A stretch of 64,000 bases of DNA, taken from assembly GCA_013368375.1 (NCBI GenBank), contig JAACJP010000004.1:1612001-1676000 (forward strand). Direction: 5' to 3'. The DNA comes from Tricholomella constricta (lineage: Eukaryota > Basidiomycota > Agaricomycetes > Agaricales > Lyophyllaceae). The position numbers were made by a program, and so were the translations under genes. The notes beneath the pieces are model-generated. The model had not been told where the DNA came from and ran no database searches. It saw only the letters and a list, made by a program, of their open reading frames with translations. Of the stretch, positions 4,057 to 15,095 are shown piece after piece (within the stretch, counting starts at the first letter, position 1; every line of letters starts with the position of its first letter).

Positions 4057-4590
4057 TGTCAGGGGAACTCCCGTTCACGCCCTCCGACGCTCTCTGGTCG
4101 TCCCCCGACTGCGCACGATCGCTCTCGTCCCGATCCCGATCGCATCCCCGACGCTCCGCCCCCAGCGTTGTGTTCATACTCCTACATACCCATACACTCA
4201 TTTAATCACCAACCGTCCCCTGACTGCGATCACGTGACCATCCGATTCTTCGGATGAGCACGTGACCGATCACTCCTCAGATGATCACGCGCCCAACCTC
4301 GTGCCTGCACCCTGAGTCACGAGGGTCGGACAGCGTCGGGGACATGTACATACACGCGCCACTGACCCTTCCCTGTCATTACATGTACAGTATACCTTAG
4401 AGGACCTGCCCTCACGTACATACGTCGTATATAGTCGTTCCCCTGACATCTGGGAATCCTTTAGTCTATTCTCTTCGGATTCCCCCTTGTCAGGTAGGCC
4501 AGCCTTTACTACATTCCTTACTGTACATAATATAACTTCGGATTCCCCCTTGTCAGTGTGATAGCGCTCCACTGTAAGGTTGCCCTAACA
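4057..4590 (+). repeat. 3' LTR of copy A
   Basis: Begins TGTCAGGGG directly after the pol stop and ends GCCCTAACA, so it keeps the TG...CA ends. A TATA element lies at 4428-4433. A hairpin around the transcript start (4442-4494) matches the one in copy B, with one compensatory base-pair change. At 534 bp it is a diverged variant of the 474-bp LTR of copy B. Confidence 0.9.
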
Positions 4591-5143: not shown

Positions 5144-5391
5144 TCACTTCCTCCTTTATTTACTTACCTATCTCTTATGTACATTAATATATCGCTATTA
5201 TCGTTCGCACAATCTCTCTCCGAGAACGAGTCGTCCCAGTCATTCCACCGTTTACGGAACGACAACATTCATCCATGTCCACGCCTCCTCTCGATAACGA
5301 TTCTCGCTATCCTCATCTCCTCTCCTCCGCATGACTCCTTGGGGAAGCTCGTTTCATGAACGACGTAGAGCCATGCTCTCGGTGGGTAGTC
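5144..5391. other. Non-coding stretch between recombinase ORF and split repeats
   Basis: T- and C-rich, no convincing coding frame. Probably the 3' untranslated part of the recombinase element. Confidence 0.4.
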
Positions 5392-5580
5392 TTTCATATC
5401 ACTCGCTTAAGGACTCGCTTAAGGGTTAAAGTTACTTTTTGTACTGGAGAGGCTCTCCACGCCGCCCCCTTTTCCCGGTCGTCCAGTCCGGCGCTTCCCG
5501 CGACGAGCCTTTCCTCACCAAACCTTTTTCCTCTCATCTTCCCTCTTCGCGGGCATTTACGCGCGCGCGCCAAGCCTTAT
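5392..5580 (+). repeat. Split direct repeat B1 (189 bp)
   Basis: Matches 5916-6104 base for base by eye. It starts TTTCATATCACTCGC, contains a tandem ACTCGCTTAAGG unit and ends in a GCGCGCGCGCC run followed by AAGCCTTAT. Confidence 0.85.
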
Positions 5581-5915
5581 TGATGGCTAGGGCTACGTAA
5601 GCCTGCGCACGGCTAGCCTGAGCTTAGATAAGGCAACGCGCGCACGAAATTCCGCTTCATAATCTTTCCCTTTTTTGTACAATCCCAATTGTACTTATGT
5701 TTCATTCCGTAAATTCTGATACACATCTCTCTCAACCTCGTTCAATTATTTTCGCTCACCCACCATCCCACCCTTTACACACAATTAGTAACTTCGCCTG
5801 GGTAGTCTTTCATATTACTCGCTTAAGGACTCGCTTAAGGGTTAAAGTTACTTTTTGTACTGGAGAGGCTCTCCACGCCGCCCCCTCACTCGCTTAAGGA
5901 CTCGCTTAAGGGTTA
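5581..5915 (+). repeat. A2 block between the B repeats, with a partial extra B copy
   Basis: 335 bp lying between the identical B blocks. Its own partner (A1) would be at the left end of the element, outside the window or lost. From 5799 to about 5887 it holds an extra partial copy of the B repeat start, followed by another tandem ACTCGCTTAAGG pair, so the block has been internally duplicated. Confidence 0.6.
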
Positions 5916-6104
5916 TTTCATATCACTCGCTTAAGGACTCGCTTAAGGGTTAAAGTTACTTTTTGTACTGGAGAGGCTCTCCACGCCGCCCCCTTTTCCC
6001 GGTCGTCCAGTCCGGCGCTTCCCGCGACGAGCCTTTCCTCACCAAACCTTTTTCCTCTCATCTTCCCTCTTCGCGGGCATTTACGCGCGCGCGCCAAGCC
6101 TTAT
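5916..6104 (+). repeat. Split direct repeat B2 (189 bp)
   Basis: Identical by eye to 5392-5580. It ends AAGCCTTAT exactly where the inverted repeat of the next element starts, so two transposon boundaries coincide here. Confidence 0.85.
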
Positions 6105-6196
6105 CGACGGTCAAACCCGAAATTTAAGCTCCGCCGAGCGCCAAACAAACGCAGGGCCCGAACCAGTTCATCTAATGATTTCGCGATAATCGGGAC
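6105..6196 (+). repeat. Left inverted repeat arm (92 bp)
   Basis: Reverse complement of 15355-15446 with a single mismatch (C at 6182). Outer end CGACGGTCAAACCCG. Confidence 0.9.
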
Positions 6197-8745: not shown

Positions 8746-9059
8746 TGTTAGGGGAACACCCGTTCGCGCCCTCCGACGCTCACCAACTGTTCCCCGACAC
8801 GTGCGCTCACTCCTGACCGATCACGATCCCGACCCCGACGCTCTGACCCAAGCGTCGGTGTACATATTTACCTTACTCACTTCCTGTCATTTCCCTCGTT
8901 TCCCTGTTCATATTCCCGATCAACTGACATCCCGACGACGGTTACCATCAGACAGCATCCGGAACCCGCTCATCATTATCACCTGTCATGGTTATCACAT
9001 GTCGTTATTATCACATGCACAGTACACTATGGAGAGCCTGCCCTCATGTATCACACTTG

Positions 9060-9065
9060 TATATA
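9060..9065 (+). promoter_or_regulatory. TATA box of the copy B LTR
   Basis: TATATA, 30-35 bp upstream of the inferred transcript start at 9092-9095. The same element is conserved at the same place in the diverged LTR of copy A (4428-4433). Confidence 0.7.
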
Positions 9066-9073
9066 GCCGGCCC

Positions 9074-9126
9074 CCTGGCATCTGGGAATCCTTTACACTA
9101 TTCTCTTTGGATTCCCCTTTGCCAGG
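9074..9126 (+). promoter_or_regulatory. Hairpin enclosing the self-primer
   Basis: Arms CCTGGCA/TGCCAGG (9074-9080, 9120-9126) and GGGAATCC/GGATTCCC (9084-9091, 9109-9116) pair around a symmetric 3x3 internal loop. The 17-nt apical loop holds the 10-nt primer sequence. In copy A the outer stem is CCTGACA/TGTCAGG, a paired G-C to A-T change. Confidence 0.75.
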
Positions 9127-9221
9127 TAAGCCTTATTTACCTCGTTACTGTACATCAATATAACTTTGGATTCCCCTTTGCCAGTACGACTAAGCTCTGC
9201 TCTAAAGGTCGCCCTAACAGC

Positions 9222-9231
9222 AGAATAGTGT
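9222..9231 (+). promoter_or_regulatory. Primer binding site for self-priming
   Basis: AGAATAGTGT, two bases after the 5' LTR, is the exact reverse complement of ACACTATTCT at 9095-9104, which should be the 5' end of the transcript. No tRNA 3'-end complement is evident. This matches the self-primed reverse transcription known from Tf1. Confidence 0.75.
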
Positions 9232-9345
9232 CTCTTAGAAACCCGACGAAGCCGACCGACCAGCTTCCGCGCCGAAACACGCGTCTGCTACACGCGACCG
9301 TCCAACGCGCGCTCGCTCTGATCGCCCGCCCAGTCCCGTTTCGAG

Positions 9346-10590
9346 ATGTCCGAATTTGGTGACATGCCGCTCGAACGACCGTTCTCTCCCTTCCTCACGA
9401 CGGAGGAGCGGTTGGCGAATATGGAAGCCACGATTTCGGCTCTCTCCGCCTCCAACACATCCAACTCGGCCTCTATGGACCGCCTCTCCGCTCTTTTCGA
9501 AAAACTCATGTCGGGGACACCCCCCAATCCCACCCCCGCTGCTCCCGAAGCAGACACGACCCCTCCGCCGCCTGAGACGATCCCTCCGTCGCCTGCGACG
9601 ACCCCTCTGCTGCCAGGCGCTCCGCAATCAGGATCGCACCACCTCCGACCGTCGCCCCCTCCCATTTACGACGGCGCCCGGTCAGGCGGTCGCGCGTTCT
9701 GGAACGCCTGCAACCTCTACTTCTCCTTGTGCGGGGGAAGTTTCGCTGACGACCACGCCCGAATTGTATGGGTGCTGTCGTACATGCAGCACGGACGAGC
9801 CGCCGACTTCGTCAGTCGGGTGTTCCAGTTCGGAACCGCCAAGGACGTCTTTCCCGCCTGGAAGGACTTCGAAGACACCTTCCGCGGCGAGTTCTTCCTC
9901 TTCGACGAAGTCGCTGACGCCGCGCTCATCTTGGAGTCGACGGCGTACTTCCAGAACGGTCGGTCGATCGATGAGTACATCGACTCGTTCCGATCCCTGT
10001 GGGTCAAGGCAGGCTACCCCGATGGGCGCCACCTGGTCCTCAAATTCCGTCGGGGAATGGACCCAAAGCTTTCGAGGCGACTTGGAAGCATCACCACGGG
10101 TCGCCCGCACGACGAGAAGATTGAGGAGTGGCTGAGGATCGCCCGTTCTCAAGACTTTATCATGAGGTCGGAGGACGACTTCCACCGTCGGATGGTCCCG
10201 ACGAAGGCGCCGGACGGCCGCCCAACCACCGCCGTAGCCGCACGATGGGCGTTCGCTACGGCCCCCACTCCCATTCCCACTCCCGCTTCTGCTCCCCCCG
10301 CCCCTCGCGCTCCCATTACACCGGCCCCTAGGCCGCTCCCCCAGGGCGTCCCGATGGATGTAGATCGGATGCGCGACAGGGTCGCACCTGCCGACGACCA
10401 CTGCTTCCGGTGCAAGAAGAAGGGTCACTACTCGCGTGACTGTCCCTTGCGCTGGGACGTGCGCCACATGCTAGACGACAAGCTGGAGGCGCTCATCATG
10501 GAGCGTCTAGCCCGCAAAGACGCAGTTCCCGCCGACCAGACTCCATCGTCGCCCGACGCGGGCACCTCCGACGCTGAGGAGGGTTTTTAA
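9346..10590 (+). CDS. Gag protein of copy B
   Basis: 414 residues. It forms the retrotransposon particle that packages element RNA. The N-terminal third is Pro/Ser/Thr-rich, the middle has the alpha-helical capsid pattern of Ty3/gypsy Gag, and a CCHC zinc knuckle (C-x2-C-x4-H-x4-C) lies at about residues 352-366 after a Pro/Ala linker. The ATG at 9346 is 126 bp past the LTR. The last sense codons form the slippery heptamer used to enter pol, directly before the TAA stop. Confidence 0.93.
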   Translation: MSEFGDMPLERPFSPFLTTEERLANMEATISALSASNTSNSASMDRLSALFEKLMSGTPPNPTPAAPEADTTPPPPETIPPSPATTPLLPGAPQSGSHHLRPSPPPIYDGARSGGRAFWNACNLYFSLCGGSFADDHARIVWVLSYMQHGRAADFVSRVFQFGTAKDVFPAWKDFEDTFRGEFFLFDEVADAALILESTAYFQNGRSIDEYIDSFRSLWVKAGYPDGRHLVLKFRRGMDPKLSRRLGSITTGRPHDEKIEEWLRIARSQDFIMRSEDDFHRRMVPTKAPDGRPTTAVAARWAFATAPTPIPTPASAPPAPRAPITPAPRPLPQGVPMDVDRMRDRVAPADDHCFRCKKKGHYSRDCPLRWDVRHMLDDKLEALIMERLARKDAVPADQTPSSPDAGTSDAEEGF

Positions 10591-13500
10591 TCGCACAACG
10601 GGTGGAACGTACGCCCCCGTTGTCTAGTCGTAATCGGTTCGCTCCACTGTCCATAGAATATGCCAATACACCTATTATTGCTGCTATTCCTACGAGTGAA
10701 CCGACCGACAAAGACGTACAAAACCCCTCCGACCCGACGACACCGATCGCAGTCGCAAAGCCGATCGCTCCGTCGCGTCGTGGCCTACCCCGCTGGGAAA
10801 AGCGACTTCCTAGTCGCTTCATCGCCGCTGCCTCCCCCTGCCCCAGATCCCTGTGGCTCAACGTTGAACTTGAGACCACCGACACCCAGGAGTCGCACGC
10901 CGTCACTGCGCTAGTGGACAGCGGAGCGACCGGCAGCTTTCTCAATATCGCTTTCGTCGAGAAACACAAACTCACGACCAAGGTGCTTAGTCGGCCATCC
11001 CCAGTTTACAACGTAGACGGCACCCTCAACGAAGGCGGTTCGGTCTCTTGCATCGTAGAAGCTGTCTTGCGATACAATGGTCATACCGAACGAGCCGTCT
11101 TCGGGGTCACCCAGTTAGGCAAGCACGACATGATCCTCGGGTTCAACTGGCTTAAAAACCACAACCCTGAGATCGACTGGGAGACCAAAGAGGTAAAGAT
11201 GAGTCGCTGTCCGATGCAGTGCGACACCTGCAAGGATGAGGTCAAAGCCGATCGACGCGCACGTACCAAAGTGCGCGCAGCAATCCGTGCCTGTCGAGCC
11301 GATGGCATCCCAACGATTGAGCCTGACCTGCGGGCCCCGACCAATCCGTACGTGGAGGACGACTCTGATGACGACGAGTTCCTCCCCTACACTCCGATCC
11401 TGGAGGAACCCGACCCAGAATCCGACGACTTCCTGACGGAGACCTTCCTGAATGGGGATCGCATCTTCGCGACCGCGATCCATCCGACCCCGACCGCCGA
11501 ACATATTCGGGCCAGCCAAACGACATCGCAGCGACTTGCGGAAGCGCACGCTGCTAACTCCGTGCCCAAAACGTTCCGCGACGCCGTACCCACCCACCTC
11601 CACGACTTTGAAGATGTCTTCTCCAAAGTTGCGTTCGATGAGCTCCCTGAGCGCAAGCAATGGGACCATGCCATCGAACTGGAGCCGGGCGCGTCGCCGA
11701 CCGGCACGAAGGTCTACCCGCTGTCACCGGCGGAACAGGTTGAACTCGACGCGTTCCTCAAAGAGAATCTCGAGACGGGTCGTATCCGACCGTCCAAGTC
11801 GCCCATGGCATCACCGGTCTTCTTCATCAAGAAGAAGGACGGGTCGCTCCGCCTGGTACAGGACTATCGGACGCTCAATGCGCTCACGGTGAAGAACCGA
11901 TACCCGCTGCCCCTCATTAGCGAACTGGTGAATAACCTTCGCGGCGCGCGGTACTTCACCAAGCTGGACGTCCGATGGGGGTACAACAATGTTCGGATCA
12001 AGGAAGGCGACGAGTGGAAGGCAGCGTTTCGGACGAACCGCGGTCTCTTTGAGCCGCTCGTCATGTTCTTCGGCCTCACGAACAGCCCCGCCACATTTCA
12101 GACCATGATGAATGATATTTTCCGCGATCTGATCGCCGAAGGTGTTGTTTGCGTGTACCTCGACGACATCTTGATTTATACCAAGACTCTAGAGGAACAC
12201 CGTCGGGTCGCGCGATTAGTACTGGACCGACTCCGCAAACATCAGTTGTTCTTAAAGCCCGAGAAATGCGAATTCGAACAGACCAAGATTGAGTATCTGG
12301 GGCTGATCATTTCGCAAGGGCAAGCGGAGATGGACCCTGTTAAGGTCGCTGGAGTGTTGGAATGGCCAGCGCCGAAGAACAAGAAGGAAGTGCAAGCATT
12401 TCTAGGCTTCACTAACTTCTACCGACGGTTCATCCAGGACTTCTCGCATCACGCCCGACCCCTGTTCGATCTGACAGGCAAGGACGTCGCCTGGCGATGG
12501 GGAGAGTCGGAGCAGTCGGCCTTTGGCCTTCTGAAGTCGGCGATCACATCGGGGCCCATTCTCATGTTCCCTGACGACGACCGACCGTACCGCATCGAAG
12601 CCGATTCATCTGACTTCGCAACGGGCGCGGTCCTGTCGCAAGAGTCGCCGTCCGACGGCAAATGGCACCCCGTCGCGTTCTACTCAAAGAGCTTGAACGC
12701 CGTCGAGCGGAACTACGAGATCCATGACAAGGAGATGCTAGCGATCATCCGGTCTCTGGAGGAGTGGCGACACTTCGTAGAAGGCGCAAAGCACAAGGTG
12801 GAGATCTGGACCGACCACAAGAACCTTGAGTACTTCCTCACCGCGAAGAAACTCAATCGGCGTCAAGCCCGATGGTCGCTCTACCTCGCTAACTTCGACT
12901 TCGCCCTCCACCACCGTCCTGGCCGTAGCATGGGCAAGCCTGACGCGTTATCGCGCCGCTCCGACCATGGCGACGGAAGTGCTGACAACGCCGACATCGT
13001 ACTGCTCAAACCCGAGTTCTTCGCGGTTCGCGCAACTGAAGGTCTTGTATTGGTCGGAGAAGAGGATGACGTGCTGAAGGCAATTCGCAAGGGCAACCGC
13101 GATGGCGCACAGGAGGATGCGGTCGCGAAAGCGGCGCAACTGGTCAAGGCATCCAAGATCGCCGGTCGCTCCCTTCGCTTTGGCGAGTGGGGAGAGGAAG
13201 GCGGTCTGCTCACGTTCCGTGGACGGATCTATGTCCCGAACGTTCCTGACCTCCGCCGACGCATCGTGGAGCACCACCACGACTCCAAGGTCGCCGGTCA
13301 CCCAGGTCGCTGGAAGACGTTAGAGCTGGTGTCGCGCAACTACTGGTGGCCCCAGATGTCACGCTTCATCGGTTCTTACACCAGCACCTGCGACATGTGC
13401 TTGCGCACGAAACCCCGCCGCCAACTCCCTGTCGGACAGCTGCAGCCGCTCCCCATTCCCGAAGGCCGATGGAATGTTGTGTCGGTCGACTTCATCACCG

Positions 13501-14621
13501 AACTCCCCGAGTCCAATGGCCACGACGCGATCATGAACGTCGTGGATTCGGTCGGAAAACGCGCGCACTTCATCGCGTCGCACACGACTTGTTCGGCTTT
13601 GGGGGCTGCGAACCTCTACCGGCGCCACGTCTGGAAGCTCCACGGTCTCCCAGATGCCTTTGTCTCCGATCGAGGTCCACAGTTCGTCGCCGAATTCACG
13701 CGCGAACTCTACCGACTCCTGGGTATCAAGCTGTCGGCTTCGACGGCGTACCACCCGCAGACCGACGGACAGACCGAACGCGTCAACCAGGAGCTGGAAC
13801 AGTTCTTGCGGGTCTTCTGCAATGAGCGTCAGAACGACTGGGAGGACCTCTTGCCCGACGCCGAATTCAGTTACAACAACCATGTACATTCGGCGACGCA
13901 GCAGACCCCCTTCCTGCTCGACACTGGTCGGCATCCACGCATGGGCTTTGAGCCACGTCGGGGCGCTTCCAAGAACGAGTCGGCCGACGAGTTTGTGGAG
14001 CGCATGAAGGAAGCACAGGAAGAAGCCAAGGCGGCGCTCTCAAAGGCCAAAGACGACATGGAGCGGTACTACAACCAGCGACACACCCCAACGCCCGACT
14101 ACCAGCCTGGCGACAAGGTGTACTTGGACGCGACCGACATTTCTACGACCCGACCATCTAAGAAATTGTCGCATCGCTACCTTGGCCCTTTTGTCGTGCA
14201 AAGGCGAGTCGGCCCGCTCGCATACCGCCTCCTGCTGCCTCAGTCCATGAAGCGCATCCACCCAGTCTTCCACGTCGTGAAACTCATCCCCGCCATCGCT
14301 GATCCGATCGAAGGTCGTCGGTCCAATCCTCCTCCTCCCCCCGACATAATCGACGACGAACCCCATTACGAAGTTGAAAAGATCCTCGATAGCCGAACCT
14401 TCCGCAAAAAACTACAGTACAAGGTCCTGTGGAAAGGCTATGGTTACGAAGAAGCTTCATGGGAACCTCGCGAAAATGTCACCGCCCCCGATCTGGTACG
14501 CAAGTTCCACCGCAACAACCCCGACGCTGCCCGCCACATTCGTGGCATGTTCACATTATCCCCGGCCGTCTTCGCCACCGCTACCCCGCACCGAGTCGTT
14601 GCGATTCAAAAGGGGGGGTGA
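10578..14621 (+). CDS. Pol polyprotein of copy B (protease, RT, RNase H, integrase, chromodomain)
   Basis: Open in the -1 frame relative to gag from 10578, overlapping the gag end. There is no ATG in the first roughly 170 codons, so entry is by frameshift rather than its own start. Motifs in order: DSGATG aspartic protease (near 10914), RT fingers and YLDD (near 12155), RNase H, integrase zinc finger HHCC (about 13270-13400), the DDE integrase core, the GPY/F region, and a chromodomain (about 14363-14510) with the aromatic cage pattern ending YKVLWKGYG..EASWEP. Chromodomains steer integration toward histone-marked chromatin. No stops or frameshifts are seen. The stop overlaps the polypurine tract. 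Confidence 0.95.
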   Translation, partial: GGFLIAQRVERTPPLSSRNRFAPLSIEYANTPIIAAIPTSEPTDKDVQNPSDPTTPIAVAKPIAPSRRGLPRWEKRLPSRFIAAASPCPRSLWLNVELETTDTQESHAVTALVDSGATGSFLNIAFVEKHKLTTKVLSRPSPVYNVDGTLNEGGSVSCIVEAVLRYNGHTERAVFGVTQLGKHDMILGFNWLKNHNPEIDWETKEVKMSRCPMQCDTCKDEVKADRRARTKVRAAIRACRADGIPTIEPDLRAPTNPYVEDDSDDDEFLPYTPILEEPDPESDDFLTETFLNGDRIFATAIHPTPTAEHIRASQTTSQRLAEAHAANSVPKTFRDAVPTHLHDFEDVFSKVAFDELPERKQWDHAIELEPGASPTGTKVYPLSPAEQVELDAFLKENLETGRIRPSKSPMASPVFFIKKKDGSLRLVQDYRTLNALTVKNRYPLPLISELVNNLRGARYFTKLDVRWGYNNVRIKEGDEWKAAFRTNRGLFEPLVMFFGLTNSPATFQTMMNDIFRDLIAEGVVCVYLDDILIYTKTLEEHRRVARLVLDRLRKHQLFLKPEKCEFEQTKIEYLGLIISQGQAEMDPVKVAGVLEWPAPKNKKEVQAFLGFTNFYRRFIQDFSHHARPLFDLTGKDVAWRWGESEQSAFGLLKSAITSGPILMFPDDDRPYRIEADSSDFATGAVLSQESPSDGKWHPVAFYSKSLNAVERNYEIHDKEMLAIIRSLEEWRHFVEGAKHKVEIWTDHKNLEYFLTAKKLNRRQARWSLYLANFDFALHHRPGRSMGKPDALSRRSDHGDGSADNADIVLLKPEFFAVRATEGLVLVGEEDDVLKAIRKGNRDGAQEDAVAKAAQLVKASKIAGRSLRFGEWGEEGGLLTFRGRIYVPNVPDLRRRIVEHHHDSKVAGHPGRWKTLELVSRNYWWPQMSRFIGSYTSTCDMCLRTKPRRQLPVGQLQPLPIPEGRWNVVSVDFITELPESNGHDAIMNVVDSVGKRAHFIASHTTCSALGAANLYRRHVWKLHGLPDAFVSDRGPQFVAEFTRELYRLLGIKLSASTAYHPQTDGQTERVNQELEQFLRVFCNERQNDWEDLLPDAEFSYNNHVHSATQQTPFLLDTGRHPRMGFEPRRGASKNESADEFVERMKEAQEEAKAALSKAKDDMERYYNQRHTPTPDYQPGDKVYLDATDISTTRPSKKLSHRYLGPFVVQRRVGPLAYRLLLPQSMKRIHPVFHVVKLIPAIADPIEGRRSNPPPPPDIIDDEPHYEVEKILDSRTFRKKLQYKVLWKGYGYEEASWEPRENVTAPDLVRKFHRNNPDAARHIRGMFTLSPAVFATATPHRVVAIQKGG
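10581..10587 (+). promoter_or_regulatory. -1 ribosomal frameshift heptamer
   Basis: G GGT TTT in gag register fits the X XXY YYZ rule and is followed at once by the gag stop TAA. Slipping one base back places ribosomes in the pol frame, which is open here. Confidence 0.75.
14608..14621 (+). promoter_or_regulatory. Polypurine tract
   Basis: AAAAGGGGGGGTGA directly before the 3' LTR; it primes plus-strand DNA synthesis in LTR elements. It overlaps the last pol codons. The same tract precedes the LTR of copy A. Confidence 0.85.
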
Positions 14622-15095
14622 TGTTAGGGGAACACCCGTTCGCGCCCTCCGACGCTCACCAACTGTTCCCCGACACGTGCGCTCACTCCTGACCGATCAC
14701 GATCCCGACCCCGACGCTCTGACCCAAGCGTCGGTGTACATATTTACCTTACTCACTTCCTGTCATTTCCCTCGTTTCCCTGTTCATATTCCCGATCAAC
14801 TGACATCCCGACGACGGTTACCATCAGACAGCATCCGGAACCCGCTCATCATTATCACCTGTCATGGTTATCACATGTCGTTATTATCACATGCACAGTA
14901 CACTATGGAGAGCCTGCCCTCATGTATCACACTTGTATATAGCCGGCCCCCTGGCATCTGGGAATCCTTTACACTATTCTCTTTGGATTCCCCTTTGCCA
15001 GGTAAGCCTTATTTACCTCGTTACTGTACATCAATATAACTTTGGATTCCCCTTTGCCAGTACGACTAAGCTCTGCTCTAAAGGTCGCCCTAACA
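14622..15095 (+). repeat. 3' LTR of copy B
   Basis: 474 bp, identical by eye to 8746-9219, including the primer hairpin (14950-15002). Confidence 0.96.

Follow-up and report, generated by a model that had tools for sequence, protein, structure and literature searches.

What primes reverse transcription of the retrotransposon found at positions 8746 to 15095 of the window, the 64,000-nucleotide stretch of Tricholomella constricta DNA analyzed here? The first-pass annotation of this DNA proposed that the 5' end of the element's own mRNA anneals next to the 5' long terminal repeat (LTR) and serves as the primer, as in Tf1. The element is a Ty3-type chromodomain retrotransposon, and all of its features described below lie on the forward strand. 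Its two LTRs (8746 to 9219 and 14622 to 15095) are identical, 474 bp long, begin with TGTTAG, end with CCTAACA, and carry the TSD GCAAC on both outer sides. The gag frame (9346 to 10590) matches the Retrotrans_gag domain and includes a CCHC knuckle. The pol frame (10578 to 14621) has matches to protease, reverse transcriptase (RT), RNase H, and integrase, as well as to the SH3_Tf2-1 domain (E value, 6.5e-20) and to a chromodomain at the integrase C terminus (Pfam ID PF00385; residues 1256 to 1304; E value, 3.2e-15). The heptamer GGGTTTT at the gag stop (10581 to 10587), with pol in the -1 frame, represents a candidate frameshift site; a -1 frameshift between gag and pol predominates outside the fission yeasts (PMC10085805). 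The polypurine tract, AAAAGGGGGGG (14608 to 14618), is read directly from the letters and is assigned by its position, preceding the 3' LTR. Sister families (C18:339891-340790 and C2:1776268-1777167 in G000) show a 1715-aa open frame around the RT, perhaps a fused gag-pol, and differ in this respect from the window element, whose gag and pol frames are separate. The nearest named proteins come mostly from Lyophyllum shimeji, with up to 88% identity over the RT-RNase H region searched. An NCBIfam search returned only weak matches, all below the cutoff, and a literature search for Lyophyllum retrotransposons gave none.

The segment at 9095 to 9104, inside the 5' LTR, reads ACACTATTCT, and the segment at 9222 to 9231 reads AGAATAGTGT; as the first-pass annotation stated, the two are exact reverse complements. 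The second of them, the putative primer-binding site, begins two bases past the LTR end (CCTAACA, ending at 9219), after the spacer GC (9220 and 9221), and the primer 10-mer is present only once in the LTR. The criterion for self-priming given in PMC6317226 is a complementarity to the LTR of at least 10 bp, starting 0 to 5 bp past it; here, 10 bp are found at +2. The TATA box had been placed correctly too, TATATA being present at 9060 to 9065. From its start to the start of the pairing segment there are 35 bases in the window copy and 31 to 35 in the loci examined, the rearranged copy L034 left out. This spacing and the end of the complementarity point to a transcription start at or within about 3 bases of 9095. 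The single copy is suggestive, not decisive, because at least 10 matching bases between any LTR position and the first 15 bases past the LTR also appeared in 20 of 5,000 randomizations (first-order Markov shuffles of the LTR, in which a position at TATA+35 was not demanded). Comparison across copies provides much stronger evidence than the window copy by itself.

Pattern searches over the whole 44-Mb host genome find the core pair at normal spacing in 238 copies. In 236 of these, primer and primer site match perfectly, as one of three alleles that differ at two base pairs, namely, ACAC/GTGT (96 copies), AGTC/GACT (45 copies), and ACTC/GAGT (95 copies), and the other 2 copies fall in none of the three classes. 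Backward control patterns run over the same genome have no matches. The primer-site 15-mer occurs 249 times: besides the 238 occurrences at normal spacing, 5 are spaced about one unit shorter (the unit is described below), 1 is spaced longer, and 5 others, counted by subtraction, have no exact core primer within the three spacing ranges covered by the search. An alignment of 35 copies, covering the 5' LTR and the leader, has an intact primer site that matches its own primer in 34; L025 shows one mismatch in the primer site. A sister family accounts for two of the aligned rows, namely, the second copies in L029 and L030; its pair is different yet again matched. Scans of viral contigs and genome contigs found no relatives outside the host genome, so that the covariation rests on one genome.

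The length of the pairing varies as well, from 10 to 13 bp across the loci examined, with 16 in the rearranged L034. It is 10 nt in the window family versus 11 to 13 in ten sequences from other families (12 to 13 in nine of them), and this shortness in the window family is a point against self-priming. An eleventh pair has arisen by sequence change in L017 and L024, two of the 24 closest copies, as would fit a primer that is now and then 11 nt long. At the start of the window lies an element whose 3' LTR (position 4463) has the AGTC allele of the primer and whose 5' LTR, in L071, is beyond the window edge. Two different chromovirus LTRs stand 915 bp apart in an arrangement that is found twice on C11, about 45 kb apart (L029:3893-5404 and L030:213-1724). 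At 5383 to 6110, the window contains repeats with block lengths of 88 and 195 nt and 93 to 99% identity.

Many of the 238 copies are near-identical and recent, and independent events are therefore few: there are four on a tree built from about 250 bp of the leader downstream of the primer site, branch supports aside. This tree includes 33 distinct leaders and omits duplicates, leaders shorter than 230 bases, L034, and also L025, with a site that departs from the pattern. On it, the LTR allele and the primer-site allele change four times each and agree in 33 of 33 sequences, and each of the three leader clades holds two alleles. In a set of 15 aligned sequences, all ten core pairs are intact throughout and two of them carry changes on both sides; when the core pairing is slid, no such pair appears in any of six versions. 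Neither the covariation score nor the share of paired cells is attained by any of 500 shuffles; the tally of doubly changed pairs is attained by 254 of them, because only two pairs vary. The first-pass annotation had suggested following the two segments across related copies, and in both the genome count and the tree they change together, not independently.

The primer site follows the LTR allele rather than the surrounding leader, as if it were rewritten from the primer, a relationship that the first-pass annotation missed. In the copies L071 and L073, the U5, the leader, and the start of gag are nearly alike, and the upstream LTR differs; their primers and primer sites both differ, by one base pair, and are matched in each. 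A primer site that follows the LTR is predicted by self-priming, since the plus-strand DNA would copy the attached primer and thereby rewrite the primer site, and selection for pairing would likewise permit it. L073 (positions 1435 to 1798) is likely a recombinant, in which the LTR through the second repeat resembles one family and the U5, leader, and gag start resemble another. A different rearrangement is seen in L034 and its continuation L045 (L034:131-1000 and L045:1-215), where LTR, GC, and primer site are joined to the reverse-complemented part of the LTR that precedes the primer. The inverted U3 is followed by an inverted gag and then by normal internal sequence, with 457 bases between the two loci uncovered. 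The junction falls exactly at the primer/primer-site pair, and an exact pattern search finds it nowhere else in the genome. Mis-annealing of the plus-strand end to the primer segment would explain this one case.

The matched primer and primer site in nearly all copies and the four concordant switches on the leader tree support the self-priming reading, and it is very probable that the element primes minus-strand synthesis with its own RNA. Complementarity, covariation, a primer site that tracks the LTR allele, and no match to the tRNAs compared are what the DNA itself displays. The transcript start, cleavage, extension, and rewriting might be pictured as follows. The transcript would begin at or near 9095, and the first 10 nt of the RNA would fold back onto 9222 to 9231. 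By analogy with Tf1, an RNase H cut after about 9104 would free a piece of 10 to 13 nt, which would then prime the synthesis of U5 and R. The plus strand, in copying the end of the minus strand, would also copy the primer, and the primer site could in this way be rewritten in each cycle to match the LTR start.

Covariation demonstrates pairing, not priming, and the same pairing could in principle serve the leader as a duplex for structure, packaging, or regulation, with another RNA acting as the primer. This is improbable, given that the pairing occupies the very position required of a primer site, 2 nt past the LTR, that no tRNA fits among those compared, and that the site in L073 matches its own LTR within an L071-like leader, as fits templated rewriting by an extended primer. 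Priming by a tRNA or a half-tRNA, with an incidental match to the LTR, is more improbable still: an incidental match would not covary, and the first-pass annotation's statement that there is no tRNA-like primer site agrees with the searches. The trinucleotide TGG (the complement of CCA) is absent from 9214 to 9275. None of the 20 tRNA genes compared fits, with a best match at the 3' end of 9 of 14, at most 7 consecutive bases anywhere in 9214 to 9275, and a longest exact match of 6 in the 20 bases after the LTR. These 20 genes come from the 59 tRNA matches listed and do not include initiator Met, and what likelihood tRNA priming retains lies in this coverage; it is rejected here on the tRNA comparison together with the covariation of primer and primer site. 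A 10-bp match by chance, for all that some shuffled LTRs produce one somewhere, is rejected as vanishingly improbable in view of three matched alleles that covary over the genome copies.

Self-priming leaves a further property of this LTR to be considered, a twin 21-nt repeat that the first-pass annotation also missed. Copy 1 (9105 to 9125) directly adjoins the primer and extends to the splice-donor-like junction CAG/GTAAGC, and copy 2 (9164 to 9184), identical to copy 1, ends in an acceptor-like CAG. The 59-nt unit from 9126 to 9184 is intron-like, with GTAAGC at its start, AATATAA at 9157 to 9163, and CAG at its end. The donor-like hexamers in the loci examined are GTAAGC, GTAGGT, GTAGGC, and GTGAGC, and AATATAA, ahead of copy 2, does not vary among the 15 aligned sequences. 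ATG is absent from 9095 to 9345. The twin copies evolve in concert: they are identical to each other in 61 of the 64 LTRs that keep the search anchors in the loci examined, across seven mutually different haplotypes, with the stretch between them varying much more than the repeats. On the other side, among 40 copies read in part, copy 2 differs in its visible part in 5 (counted by eye), and the donor-like GT is lost in 1; the divergent copies in this set may be old.

Some copies are without about one unit. A pattern search finds six such LTRs, and there are five unit-less copies of the primer site. In the one unit-less sequence read, copy 1 runs straight into the U5 that otherwise comes after copy 2. 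Two LTRs on C5 of G000 (1029090-1029151 and 1034916-1034977, minus strand), 5.8 kb apart, are both without about one unit of 59 to 61 nt and seem to be the two LTRs of one element. The pattern search found no exact gain of one unit; one copy is longer, by about 50, which is not a unit. The unit-less copies fit splicing and recombination between repeats alike.

The repeat also takes part in the predicted structure of the leader RNA. All 10 primer pairs are present in the minimum-energy folds of 15 of 15 sequences, with or without the unit. For a side duplex between 9116 to 9120, within the repeat, and 9204 to 9208, in U5, 93.1% of the cells are paired, and changes on both sides are seen in two pairs (in one pair when the duplex is slid by +1); this duplex is similar to the U5-IR portion of the structure in Tf1. 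The repeat partner of U5 is copy 2 in the unspliced fold and copy 1 in the spliced fold. For the Tf1/sushi group, in which self-priming is common, a structure of three duplexes has been described (PMC10085805). The central duplex and one side duplex of this "pretzel" are supported in the present element; the candidates for the second side duplex are short, and their covariation is not clear.

Two explanations of the twin repeat deserve consideration. One of them, which we regard as somewhat likely, involves no splicing: the copies would be kept alike by template switching, by gene conversion, or by the need of both to pair with U5, and AATATAA would act as a poly(A) signal instead of a branch site. 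Either copy is indeed able to pair with U5, recombination between direct repeats would also account for the unit-less copies, and AATATAA resembles a poly(A) signal. Such exchange, however, should add units too, whereas the five unit-less primer-site copies stand against no exact one-unit gain. It also leaves unexplained why, in each family examined, the repeat fills exactly the interval between the primer and GTRRGY. The other explanation, which is possible though rather doubtful, is that the R region of the LTR carries a real intron (9126 to 9184) that is restored at strand transfer through the twin repeat. In such a case, exon 1 would consist of the self-primer and the 21-nt repeat, and the intron would end with the second repeat copy. 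Strong-stop DNA made from the spliced RNA would end exactly in the repeat, because the primer would have been cut away. Landing on copy 2 of the 3' LTR, this DNA would restore the intron and overwrite copy 2 with copy 1; landing on copy 1 instead, it would lose the intron. If the intron is real, a self-primed LTR element would keep it across reverse transcription of spliced RNA, and what RNA reads should show is clearly predicted by the model. A limited literature search found neither a twin repeat nor an LTR intron that a repeat restores, which is weak evidence of absence.

For self-priming, the value of this genome lies in its copy number, as about 240 copies allow the pair to be followed through allele switches and include a likely recombinant whose primer site matches the new LTR inside another family's leader. 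Two questions become testable in sequence, namely, the length of the primer in each family and the copying of the primer into the primer site of the next generation. Genome-wide covariation with a primer site that follows the LTR was not found in the literature searched, in a limited search that left subscription papers mostly outside its reach. These observations bear on priming in basidiomycete chromoviruses such as Tcn2 to Tcn5.

Ty3 uses a tRNA primer. It is the closest solved relative of the window element by sequence (7q5b; E value, 9.9e-136) and, unlike that element, is described without a chromodomain (PMC3601003). PMC2864245 lists marY1 of Tricholoma matsutake, a mushroom basidiomycete chromovirus, by name as a clade, and the tree of PMC10085805 includes it; it is likened to the window element by host and type only. 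Tcn1 of the basidiomycete Cryptococcus neoformans is likewise a chromovirus and has been proposed to self-prime, with possibly novel mechanisms in Tcn2 to Tcn5 (PMC7175516); it is likened to the window element by host group and priming only. Plant members of the Tcn1 clade are predicted to self-prime (PMC6317226), and for one plant element of this clade, the account in PMC2864245 gives evidence for neither tRNA priming nor self-priming.

Self-priming has been demonstrated in Tf1 (PMC4600332, PMC7175516) and elsewhere in this literature is proposed or predicted from complementarity. As presented in PMC10085805 and PMC6317226, it is what one expects of the Tf1/sushi group, a point that the first-pass annotation underplayed. 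The mechanism is thus already known, and the window element is a well-supported additional case, likened to Tf1 by its features and not by a tree. With Tf1 of Schizosaccharomyces pombe, as well as Tj1 (described in PMC4600332), Tosmo1 to Tosmo3, and Tcry1, it shares, given its predicted transcript start, an RNA 5' end complementary to a primer site just after the LTR, an integrase with a chromodomain, and a duplex adjoining the primer site (PMC10085805, PMC7175516, PMC4600332). The primer pairing of Tf1 measures 11 nt (PMC7175516), compared to 10 nt in the window element. Those elements have a single frame or an in-frame stop, whereas the window element has a gag with a CCHC knuckle and a separate pol in the -1 frame. 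Finally, in contrast to Tf1, the window element has, just past its primer, one copy of a twin 21-nt repeat.
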